Part shown: in pieces, positions 13,185-24,513 of the stretch
How positions within the stretch are numbered: position 1 is the first letter of the stretch
How the letters are laid out: each line of letters opens with the position of its first letter
Source: Metallumcola ferriviriculae
GTDB lineage: Bacteria; Bacillota; JADQBR01
DNA: 64,000 nucleotides
Direction of reading: 5' to 3'
Assembly (NCBI RefSeq): GCF_035573695.1
Contig: NZ_CP121694.1
Location: 1,464,501 to 1,528,500, forward strand
The notes under the pieces: generated by a model
Told to the model about the DNA's origin: nothing
Seen by the model: the letters and a program-made list of their open reading frames with translations, nothing else
Databases searched by the model: none
Made by a program: the position numbers and the translations under genes

Positions 13185-14189
13185 ATGAAGAAGATGGTTG
13201 AAGGATTAAAACATTATCCCGGGGTACACTGTTGTTCTACATCAGTGAGGGATATCGTGAATTTTCACGGGCATGAATTGTCCGAGGCCATGTGTTTTGG
13301 CCTAGCCAGCGGGTTGGGTTTTACTTATTGGAAGGATGACAAGGTATCGCCTAGTAGGTGTATGGCCGGGCGGGCAGAATGGATAGCACCACAATTTTTC
13401 CAAAATATTGGCATGCCGTTTACTTGGGAGGTTCAAAAAGAGTTTCCGTGGCCGGAAATGAAAAAATATCTTGATAATGATGTGCCAATTCTACTGCTGA
13501 CAGACATATATTACTTAGAATATTATGGGAGCAGCACTCACTTTGCCGGTCATTGCGTAGTACTGGCCGGATATGATGAAGAGCATGAAACGGTATTTTT
13601 AGGAGATACGGACCGTGAAGGATGGCAGACCGCTTCATTGGCGTCGCTGGAAAAGGCGATGAATTCGGTGGCACTGCCGGTAAGTATCCAAAACTATTGG
13701 CAGCCATTCCCTAAGGTAGAGATAGCCAGCATTGAATCAGCGATTGTTACAGCTTTAATGAGGCAGTATAAGCAGATGCAGCATCCATCGCAGCCAATAG
13801 TAGGATTGACGGGAATGCAGCACTTTGTTAAGGATTTAAAGAATTGGTCGAAAGAGGCAGCCGACTTAGATTGGTGTCTGCGTTTCAGTTATCAAGTAAT
13901 TGAAAAACGGGGCACGGGCGGTGGTAATTTTAGATTAATTTACAGCAGTTTCCTTGAAGAAGCCCACCAATATTTCCCGGGGTCAACGCTTGATGATGCT
14001 GCGGCGGAAATGAAGGAGATTGCCGCTCTCTGGACAGAATTGGCCTATGTTTTTAAAGAACTGAGCGAATCATTCACTGCTAAACAACTTGAAAATGCGA
14101 TCGCTTTAAGCCGCAATGTCTGCAGCCGGGAAAAGGACTTCTACCTAAGACTTTCTCACATATGTGAAAATCTATCCGGCTTGGAGTAG
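13185..14189 (+). CDS. BtrH N-terminal domain protein (cysteine-protease-like fold)
   Basis: This 334-residue protein starts with the BtrH-type signature HYPGVHCCSTS...SEAMCFGLASGLGF, followed by a helical C-terminal domain of the kind annotated as DUF4872. BtrH in butirosin biosynthesis is an acyl-ACP:aminoglycoside acyltransferase with a papain-like fold; the cysteine in HCCST would be the nucleophile, and a histidine appears at THFAGHCVVLAGYD. The substrate here is unknown and no antibiotic cluster surrounds it. The start follows a GGAGGAGG ribosome site. It is a single-gene unit after the acyl-CoA operon. Confidence 0.7.
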   Translation: MKKMVEGLKHYPGVHCCSTSVRDIVNFHGHELSEAMCFGLASGLGFTYWKDDKVSPSRCMAGRAEWIAPQFFQNIGMPFTWEVQKEFPWPEMKKYLDNDVPILLLTDIYYLEYYGSSTHFAGHCVVLAGYDEEHETVFLGDTDREGWQTASLASLEKAMNSVALPVSIQNYWQPFPKVEIASIESAIVTALMRQYKQMQHPSQPIVGLTGMQHFVKDLKNWSKEAADLDWCLRFSYQVIEKRGTGGGNFRLIYSSFLEEAHQYFPGSTLDDAAAEMKEIAALWTELAYVFKELSESFTAKQLENAIALSRNVCSREKDFYLRLSHICENLSGLE

Positions 14190-14225: not shown

Positions 14226-14432
14226 TCACTGGGTGTCATCGCGCATGTCATCTATCTGCTTATTAAGTTGATCTTTTACGGCGACTGTGGGAGACACTAG
14301 AGTAAGGTCAATCGTATCAATAAATAAATCCATAGCGTATCCTAGGTTTAATCCAAACAGGCTGCCGAAAGTTAGACCCATCTGATGAATGGTTTTAGTG
14401 CGAATGCCTGGCTGAAACAGCTTTTTATCCAT
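14226..14432 (-). CDS. small protein of unknown function (68 aa)
   Basis: I do not recognise this 68-residue protein. It begins MDKKLFQPGIRTKT, has one moderately hydrophobic, glycine-rich central segment (LTFGSLFGLNLGYAMDLFID) and an acidic end. ATG 14432 follows AAAGGTGG at good spacing and is preferred over an in-frame GTG nine bases upstream. It is divergent from the TGA-interrupted gene at 14500, with about 70 bases between them for both promoters. Confidence 0.6.
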   Translation of the reverse strand: MDKKLFQPGIRTKTIHQMGLTFGSLFGLNLGYAMDLFIDTIDLTLVSPTVAVKDQLNKQIDDMRDDTQ

Positions 14433-14499
14433 GTTAACCACCTTTCACATCGATAGTATTAATTTTACTGGTGTTGATACCACGAAAGGAGAAATAATT

Positions 14500-14817
14500 A
14501 TGCCTTCTTTACGTAATGTTTTTACTAACCCGAATGCAAGGGTGCTGCGAGACGAAATGGTAGACGAGGCTACTAGGAATATGCAGCTTGAGGTAACAGG
14601 TCTAATATGCTACTCGGTGTGAGTTAACCGGGTTAAGCAGGCCTTGGAAGGGCTGCAAGGAGTAAGTCAGGTAACTTTTGATAGAGGGCAAAAAGATATT
14701 TTTAATATTCTGTATCAAGGGCAATATCCTCGGGGTAGTGAGTTTGCTGATGCAGCAAGGCAGCAAGTGGTAGCACCTAATGTTCGCCGTGCTCTTGATC
14801 TGAGCCATCAGCGGTAG
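14500..14817 (+). CDS. heavy-metal-associated (HMA) domain protein with in-frame TGA
   Basis: From ATG 14500 (AAAGGAGA ribosome site) the frame runs 40 codons to TGA at 14620-14622 and continues unbroken to TAG at 14815-14817, for 105 codons. The part after TGA is plainly coding: VNRVKQALEGLQGVSQVTFD matches the core of HMA domains, whose usual motif is GMxCxxC. Here the motif region reads GLICYSV-(TGA)-VNRV, so TGA sits where a second metal-binding cysteine would be, offset by one codon. It is either a selenoprotein (CxxxU) or a nonsense-mutated gene. Downstream RNA can fold into TTAAC/GTTAA right after TGA, and GCAG/CTGC with CC/GG at 14637-14656. Confidence 0.55.
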
Positions 14818-15097
14818 TTTTTTGGGATGCAGTTTTTAGGGCATTGCTGGCGGTGAGGAATAAACCCTGAAGACTTAAGGCGGTAACCTCCGAACTAGCA
14901 CCGATAAATCTACCGATGAGACCCCCCGTTTCTGACCCCATTTCTTCCCAAAGGTTTGTCAGTGAAGGATTGGCCGCAGAGGGTTCTTCATTGAGTGATA
15001 TTTGCAGCTGTCCTTTTTCCGGCAGCTGTAGGAGTAGGTGCTCTATGGCATGTCGAAGTTCGTCTTTATTTTCATAATTAAAGCTAAAACTCTTCAT
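14777..15097 (-). CDS. small conserved-looking protein of unknown function (106 aa)
   Basis: This is a 106-residue protein with an excellent GGAGGTGAT ribosome site before its ATG. The N-terminal 45 residues (MKSFSFNYENKDELRHAIEH) form an alpha/beta segment reminiscent of amphipathic-regulator domains; the C-terminal half is alanine/glycine-rich and weakly hydrophobic (GGLIGRFIGASSEVTALSLQG). I assign no function. It converges on, and overlaps by 41 bases, the end of the HMA-domain gene. Confidence 0.6.
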   Translation of the reverse strand: MKSFSFNYENKDELRHAIEHLLLQLPEKGQLQISLNEEPSAANPSLTNLWEEMGSETGGLIGRFIGASSEVTALSLQGLFLTASNALKTASQKTTADGSDQEHGEH

Positions 15098-15216: not shown

Positions 15217-15891
15217 ATGGCCAAGCCAAAACGCTTTACCAGGATACCTAAACATATCGGAGTTATTCCCGACGGAAATCGTCGCTGGGCCTTATCCAAG
15301 GGACTGAATAAGGAAGACGGCTACGGTAATGGGATAGACCCCGGCGTTGAGCTGTACAAACAATGTCTGGAACTTGGTGTAGAGGAAATGTCTTTTTACG
15401 GATTTACTATGGACAATACTAAACGTCCGAGAGAACAGACCAAGGCCTTTCAAAAGGCCTGCGTAGATGCAGTGACAGCATTGACGGATCTTGATGCTTC
15501 TATATTGGTTGTTGGTGATTGTGATTCACTATTATTTCCTAAAGAACTAAAGGATTTTATTCAACGGCGAAGCTTCGGCCGCGGATTGATGCGGGTAAAT
15601 TTCCTGATAAATTACGGCTGGCAATGGGACTTGCGGGCATTGATGGCCAATAGAAAAGAGAAGGTGCCTGGAGGGAAAAACATCGCTGAGGTGCTGGCAT
15701 CATCGGATGTTTCCAGGATAGATCTAGTCATCCGTTGGGGCGGCCGCAGGCGGCTCAGTGGCTTTTTACCAATTCAAACAGTTTACGCCGACTTTTATGT
15801 AGTGGACGAGATGTGGCCCGATTTTAAAGAAGGCCACGTCTATGAGGCGCTAAGCTGGTACCAGGCACAGGATATAACTTTAGGCGGGTGA
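15217..15891 (+). CDS. cis-prenyltransferase (undecaprenyl diphosphate synthase family)
   Basis: This 224-residue protein belongs to the UppS family, which condenses isopentenyl diphosphate onto an allylic diphosphate. The active-site loop reads HIGVIPDGNRRWA, keeping the essential Asp of the usual MDGNGRWA. The C-terminal signature reads RWGGRRRLSGFLPIQTVYADFY and ends DEMWPDF, in place of RTSGExRLSNF. It is short and divergent, so it may be an accessory paralogue rather than the housekeeping enzyme for the lipid carrier. A TTTGGAGGG ribosome site precedes the ATG. It is monocistronic, with a terminator overlapping its stop. Confidence 0.78.
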   Translation: MAKPKRFTRIPKHIGVIPDGNRRWALSKGLNKEDGYGNGIDPGVELYKQCLELGVEEMSFYGFTMDNTKRPREQTKAFQKACVDAVTALTDLDASILVVGDCDSLLFPKELKDFIQRRSFGRGLMRVNFLINYGWQWDLRALMANRKEKVPGGKNIAEVLASSDVSRIDLVIRWGGRRRLSGFLPIQTVYADFYVVDEMWPDFKEGHVYEALSWYQAQDITLGG

Positions 15892-19758: not shown

Positions 19759-19959
19759 ATGACTAAAGAAAAAACTGTTGCCTGTGCTAGTTGTGATATG
19801 TGTGGTCGTGAGGTACAATCAAATTTTACCTGTACGTTGATTTTGAACAAAGAGGATAATACCGAAGAAGCTTGCTGGTGCGTCTGCCCTGACTGCGCCT
19901 CCAGGTTTAAAAAGGACGTAAAAGACTTTTACGATGCCGTAATCGATGAAGAGAAATAA
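19759..19959 (+). CDS. small zinc-ribbon protein
   Basis: This 66-residue protein has three cysteine pairs or clusters (CASCDMCG, then CWCVCPDC), consistent with one treble-clef or zinc-ribbon site, and an acidic helical end. The function is unknown. TAAGGAGG precedes the ATG, and a TATAAT element (19721-19726) lies 38 bases upstream of the start. It is monocistronic and closed by a terminator. Confidence 0.75.
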   Translation: MTKEKTVACASCDMCGREVQSNFTCTLILNKEDNTEEACWCVCPDCASRFKKDVKDFYDAVIDEEK

Positions 19960-24084: not shown

Positions 24085-24168
24085 TTCGGCAACTGGCTGC
24101 CATGCCCCTAAGGGTTTAGGCCCTATAGCTTTGCGCCCCCGCTTTTTAGCGAGTTTGCCATTATCGAG
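24085..24168 (-). promoter_or_regulatory. cyclic di-GMP-I (GEMM-I) riboswitch aptamer
   Basis: Read on the minus strand, the stretch contains the conserved GEMM-I core in order: GGCAAAC, a variable stem, GGGGGCGCAAAGC, GGGCCTAAA, then CATGGCAGCCAGTTGCC. These are the c-di-GMP-binding and tetraloop-receptor positions of class I. It precedes a terminator and the LytTR gene. Whether ligand turns the gene on or off depends on an antiterminator pairing I cannot compute. Confidence 0.9.
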
Positions 24169-24513
24169 ATAGATTTGTATTCTCTTACTTAGGTAAATTC
24201 CATTATTAGGTATATTTTTCCTGCAAGAAGATAGGTTTTATTTCCTACATTTAGAGTGATAAAGCCCTATTTTCTGCGGTTTATCCTAATAGTACCACCT
24301 TCATCGCCGCCCGACTTAGAACTTGCTCTTTTAATACTTTTAGATTCGGTGTATATATGTGAAGTTTTAGACAAGCAAATGGAGGTTTGGTACAAGGTTA
24401 GAAGCGGGCATTCCATGGTTATGATAAGCTTTATTTAGACCCCTAGTTTAACTCTCATCAAGGTATGGGTAAGGTGAACTTACTTAAAAAACTTTGGAGG
24501 GGGGTGAATTTAA

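Follow-up and report, generated by a model that had tools for sequence, protein, structure and literature searches.

An in-frame TGA at the second metal-ligand position of a small HMA-type protein of Metallumcola ferriviriculae is very probably decoded as selenocysteine (Sec), a computational assessment that covers the decoding and not the binding of a metal. This reading follows from the Sec machinery of the host, the conservation of the TGA in all 17 family members and a stable, covarying SECIS hairpin behind it. The family to which the protein belongs is Sec-only, it occurs across several families of one phylum, and its CxxU motif is lengthened to CxxxU in the lineage of the gene described here. 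An earlier sequence-only reading had suggested selenocysteine in a metal-binding-type protein, and the machinery and the conserved TGA support that suggestion.

The window that we analysed is the whole 64,000-nt stretch from 1,464,501 to 1,528,500 of NZ_CP121694.1 (GCF_035573695.1), a complete chromosome of 3.72 Mb. The open reading frame starts with an ATG at 14500, contains a single in-frame TGA at codon 41 and ends with a TAG at 14815-14817 (Table 1). When the TGA is translated as U, the protein sequence is MPSLRNVFTNPNARVLRDEMVDEATRNMQLEVTGLICYSVUVNRVKQALEGLQGVSQVTFDRGQKDIFNILYQGQYPRGSEFADAARQQVVAPNVRRALDLSHQR, and the TGA lies in the context TGLICYSV-U-VNRV within the HMA-like domain.

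Table 1. Features of the predicted selenoprotein gene and its conserved neighbours (positions in the window)
Feature	Position	Strand	Basis
HMA-type selenoprotein gene (predicted), 105 residues, Sec41	14500..14817	+	translation with TGA = U; 17-member alignment; PDB profile homology
Shine-Dalgarno-like AGGAG, 8 nt upstream of the ATG	14487..14491	+	sequence
Cys37, invariant (17/17), at the first of the two ligand positions in C-x(2-3)-U	14608..14610	+	alignment
In-frame TGA (Sec41), second Cys position of the HMA CxxC motif; TGA in 17/17	14620..14622	+	alignment
Bacterial SECIS hairpin; stem 14638-14645/14649-14656, apical loop GGA 14646-14648	14638..14656	+	covariation, consensus fold, shuffle test
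Extra N-terminal beta strand, residues 12-20, outside the standard HMA domain	14533..14559	+	AlphaFold2 model; conserved NIxVNP region
C-terminal helix, residues 93-102, consensus PGVRxxLG, in place of the last HMA strand	14776..14805	+	alignment; model
71-aa glycine-zipper-like small protein, divergent, conserved neighbour	14226..14441	-	adjoins the gene in G000, G001, G002 and G090
106-aa paralogue of the 71-aa protein, convergent, overlaps the 3' end of the Sec gene	14777..15097	-	same four genomes
Polyprenyl (undecaprenyl) diphosphate synthase-like, conserved neighbour	15217..15891	+	ends TGA, orthologues TAA

Conservation of the TGA across the family

We searched 398 genomes, a sample of one phylum, and found family members in 17 of them, each with one TGA within the domain. 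All 17 TGAs share one alignment column, where HMA domains have the second Cys of CxxC, and the 16 homologues align across the TGA over approximately 100 residues; both the placement of the TGA at a metal-site motif and the coding character of its two sides, as the sequence-only reading had seen them, are thereby confirmed. The gene is also present in two other genomes of the class, which belong to two other genera; identity is 52-55%, and the TGA has the same position. The motif has the form CxxU (CGGU, CGLU, CFLU or CDAU) in 13 members and C-x-x-x-U in four, namely the window gene and three other genomes with CYSVU, CYSLU or CYTLU. The additional codon relative to CxxC is thus real, as had been noted, but inherited; the best tree requires two changes for its origin, and a single change may have sufficed.

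Fourteen columns of the 17-member alignment show no variation. Among them are Cys37, the TGA column and, downstream of the TGA, Arg44, Val45, Leu49, Tyr72, Arg96 and Leu99. In close pairs, selection on the part behind the TGA is purifying (dN 0.04-0.08 versus dS 0.26-1.6; dN/dS about 0.04-0.16). Nine long-form members possess a further N-terminal stretch of roughly 60-80 residues.

The weakest TGA-containing member scored 108.8 bits, and the next match in the phylum, a CxxC-type HMA protein, scored 46.2 bits. Matches of 46 bits or less have no internal stop and are mostly copper-ATPase-sized and short HMA frames; the one frame among them that was translated in full has CxxC. No Cys orthologue was found among the 398 genomes, and every close homologue has TGA, never Cys, at this position, which is occupied by Cys in remote HMA paralogues (CopZ, CopA). 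A pattern scan of genome contigs, which also covered other phyla, gave no match with the single protein, and a scan with a three-protein alignment returned the two known relatives only; this method finds close relatives only.

The hairpin downstream of the TGA

The 45 nt from the TGA onwards align gap-free in 17 of 17 members. Columns 19-26 pair with columns 30-37 in a stem that reaches eight pairs at most, and its loop, of the GGA type, lies 23 nt behind the UGA. Published features of bacterial SECIS elements are a hairpin immediately downstream of the UGA and a small apical loop with a G (PMC1088965), and the hairpin of the window gene, in which the inner six pairs (14640-14645/14649-14654) form, agrees with these through its GGA loop at the same distance of 23 nt. 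Two-sided compensatory changes occur in six of the eight stem pairs, and RNAalifold recovered the same six inner pairs unaided.

Paired cells amounted to 86%; paired cells, covariation score and double-change count were reached by 0-1 of 500 shuffles, the covariation score by none, and every slid register scored lower. Compared with synonymous-codon, protein-preserving shuffles, the summed hairpin energy was -154.7 versus -79.7 +/- 10.8 kcal/mol and the number of inner pairs formed was 98 versus 77.7 +/- 3.1. Because related sequences are treated as independent, all of these shuffle statistics and z-scores are inflated. The stem is imperfect in the family register in G112 and G059. Two SECIS-like hairpins had been proposed from the sequence: the second one is conserved and covaries as a SECIS element, and the first is absent from the consensus fold of the family. 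A scan at Rfam gathering thresholds yielded no named element at the Sec gene.

In the mechanism that we propose, SelB carrying Sec-tRNA(UCA) would bind the hairpin just behind the UGA, and Sec would be inserted as residue 41, where the ferredoxin-like, MerP/CopZ-type HMA domain has its second metal-ligand position. The product is probably cytosolic, as a signal peptide was not seen.

Selenocysteine machinery of the host and of the family members

The genes to which the sequence-only reading had pointed as a check are all present in the host genome: SelA (615 bits versus a cut-off of 268), SelB (633 aa, encoded directly behind selA), a tRNA-Sec with the anticodon TCA (UCA; 74.6 bits) and SelD. 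The selD gene (L014:1501-2424; C1:414315-415238 of the host genome) carries an in-frame TGA of its own and probably encodes a selenoprotein itself.

Among the 17 member genomes, 16 have a strong tRNA-Sec (69-76 bits). Sixteen of the 17 also carry selA, a gene that 257 of the 398 sampled genomes of the phylum possess (Fisher p = 0.005). G235 is the exception, a genome that is 75% complete and has a tRNA match of only 50 bits.

HMA domain and predicted fold

A profile search with the family against the PDB matched the HMA domains of CopA, CopZ and MerP, and MerP (1osd) superimposes on the predicted model at 2.1 A with a TM score of 0.78 of the target, which bears out the HMA-type domain recognised earlier. 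The three members tested exceed the gathering score of 24.8 for PF00403 (HMA) with 30.9, 33.4 and 25.7 bits; the window protein remains below it at 19.1, probably because of its extra codon. The AlphaFold2 model (pLDDT 79.5) has the order strand-strand-helix-strand-strand-helix-helix, that is, the beta-alpha-beta-beta-alpha core of an HMA domain with an added N-terminal strand and with a C-terminal helix for the last HMA strand. In this model, the extra N-terminal strand may stand in for the absent final one. Most HMA matches in Foldseek have an rmsd near 2 and a TM score of 0.66-0.78 of the target. The top Foldseek matches (RNA polymerase subunit L, gyrase) were discarded as loose, with TM scores of about 0.4-0.5 and an rmsd mostly near 6.

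Genomic neighbourhood

In four genomes from two families, those of the window's class and G090, the two glycine-zipper-like genes adjoin the Sec gene; in G090, which belongs to another family, the Sec gene and both of these genes lie on one strand. Neither neighbour has a Pfam or NCBIfam match. The idea that the N-terminal extension of the long-form members is a fused glycine-zipper neighbour found no support (hhalign probability 0.1-0.3%). A BtrH_N/DUF4872 protein is encoded upstream of the Sec gene at 13185-14189, and it was not seen beside the gene in the two relatives.

At two other loci (L043/L054, genomes G111 and G112), the Sec gene is located directly behind genes for a FixC-like ETF:quinone oxidoreductase and a FixX-like ferredoxin, and a small ferredoxin gene lies downstream of it in three other genomes. 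The surroundings of the long-form members are partly conserved, with an aldo/keto reductase, a ferredoxin-type membrane protein and a small ferredoxin, and indicate no single pathway.

Decoding, function and alternative explanations

With regard to decoding, the sequence-only reading had itself raised the possibility of a broken gene, in which a small insertion created the stop and the downstream frame is a relic. The window copy does have a motif one codon longer than CxxC, yet this codon is common to four genera, the TGA is present in 17 genomes and the downstream protein is under purifying selection. Because four genera share the extra codon and 17 genomes share the TGA, we regard the insertion or pseudogene explanation as excluded for practical purposes. 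An equally negligible probability attaches to readthrough of the UGA as another amino acid, such as Trp or Gly, or to a variant genetic code, for which no supporting point was found. The neighbouring synthase gene ends in a TGA at the codon at which both orthologues end in TAA, so UGA is an ordinary stop elsewhere in the host genome; this termination of ordinary genes, the Sec machinery of the host and the coincidence of the TGA with a Cys ligand position led us to reject these readings in favour of Sec.

For the Sec protein itself, the HMA fold and the motif suggest, with chances that we consider about evenly balanced, that Cys and Sec together coordinate a soft metal, for example Cu(I) or Hg(II), as happens in other HMA domains. 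In the loci examined, we recognised neither a gene for metal transport nor one for metal sensing next to the Sec gene, so that it is the fold and the motif that carry this putative role. The main alternative is that the same selenoprotein has a redox function, in selenenylsulfide chemistry or electron transfer, rather than one in metal binding, which we take to be possible but less than probable. It would fit the absence of Cys orthologues, which suggests that the chemistry of selenium is needed, the position directly behind the FixC- and FixX-like genes, the downstream ferredoxin genes and the fact that CxxU is a common redox motif (PMC13188914). On the other side, the domain is an HMA domain, the studied members of which bind metals, C-x-x-x-U, as present in four members, is an uncommon spacing for a redox motif, and the neighbourhood varies between lineages. 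A more speculative proposal, less likely than not, is that the family depends strictly on selenium because Sec, in the second ligand position, provides chemistry for which Cys is no substitute. It might act as a selenol relay coupled to electron transfer of the FixCX type, or form a selenolate metal site with an unusual C-x-x-x-U geometry, and would then not simply be a faster CopZ or MerP.

Whichever function applies, the family is computationally well supported and brings to the metal-binding HMA fold a selenoprotein whose Sec sits in an unusual position. It raises the testable question of why a metal-site protein would depend on selenium, and provides with its C-x-x-x-U form a natural variant of ligand spacing. 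Homology-based searches for selenoproteins rely on Cys/TGA pairs. Because such pairs are sought, a family without a Cys orthologue would escape these searches, and its genes would be annotated as truncated or missed.

Comparison with known HMA-type selenoproteins

HMA-type selenoproteins are in themselves a known kind, represented by the UxxU family NF041115, MerP-like proteins (PMC2398784) and an ATPase with UxxC (PMC13188914). Among NCBIfam models, the window protein matches NF041115 best (26.8 bits). NF041115 too is a small domain of HMA type in which Sec occupies ligand positions, but it has two Sec residues (UxxU) instead of one at the second position only, and with 74 residues it is without the N- and C-terminal extensions of the present family, the tested members of which score only 18-39 bits against its cut-off of 95. 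The MerP and MerP-like selenoproteins of the GOS inventory (PMC2398784) share the HMA fold; classical MerP, however, is periplasmic, has Cys and belongs to mer operons, whereas neither a signal peptide nor recognisable mer genes nearby were seen for the present protein, which reaches 16.7 bits against the cut-off of 92.55 of the MerP model TIGR02052. CopZ and the N-terminal HMA domains of CopA show profile homology over residues about 24-86 but have Cys at both ligand positions, the second of which is Sec and never Cys in the present family in the genomes searched. The E1-E2 cation-transporting ATPase (TIGR01525, UxxC) is a selenoprotein of metal transport that also pairs Sec with Cys (PMC13188914); it is a large transporter with Sec first, in contrast to the small present proteins with Sec second.

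We found no HMA selenoprotein with CxxU in the literature, and a 2026 inventory of 119 selenoprotein families contains no stand-alone HMA protein with this motif (PMC13188914). The Sec-only C-x(2-3)-U HMA family with its conserved N- and C-terminal extensions therefore looks new at the family level and seems to be uncatalogued. That it is already known under another name, e.g. as the selenoprotein 'putative mercuric transport protein' (C/SxxU, ABB16073.1) or through an unnamed GenBank annotation, appears quite improbable to us. The ABB16073.1 entry likewise has a CxxU motif (PMC13188914, Table 1), but the inventory assigns it to the membrane protein MerT (PF02411), and the present family shows HMA only and no MerT match. 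In addition, no NCBIfam model passes its own cut-off with the present family.

Other TGA-containing HMA genes and further elements

The genome of the window encodes a second, different HMA protein with an in-frame TGA, at L099:1823-1984 (C1:1310322-1310483). It is lipoprotein-like and has a UxxC motif (FTUASC) with Sec at the first ligand position; UxxC relatives are present at L105, L101 and L102, and a similar gene (TUKPEAC) at L100. Short HMA proteins with two in-frame TGAs, a UxxU motif (MTUTSU) and hairpins after the TGA were observed at L103 and L104 (G097, G013), and they score well below the NF041115 cut-off. Elsewhere in the window, 19759-19959 encodes a 66-aa Cys-rich small protein with a weak TRASH-type resemblance below the Pfam cut-off, and a c-di-GMP-I riboswitch (76.9 bits) is located at 24085-24169 on the minus strand.
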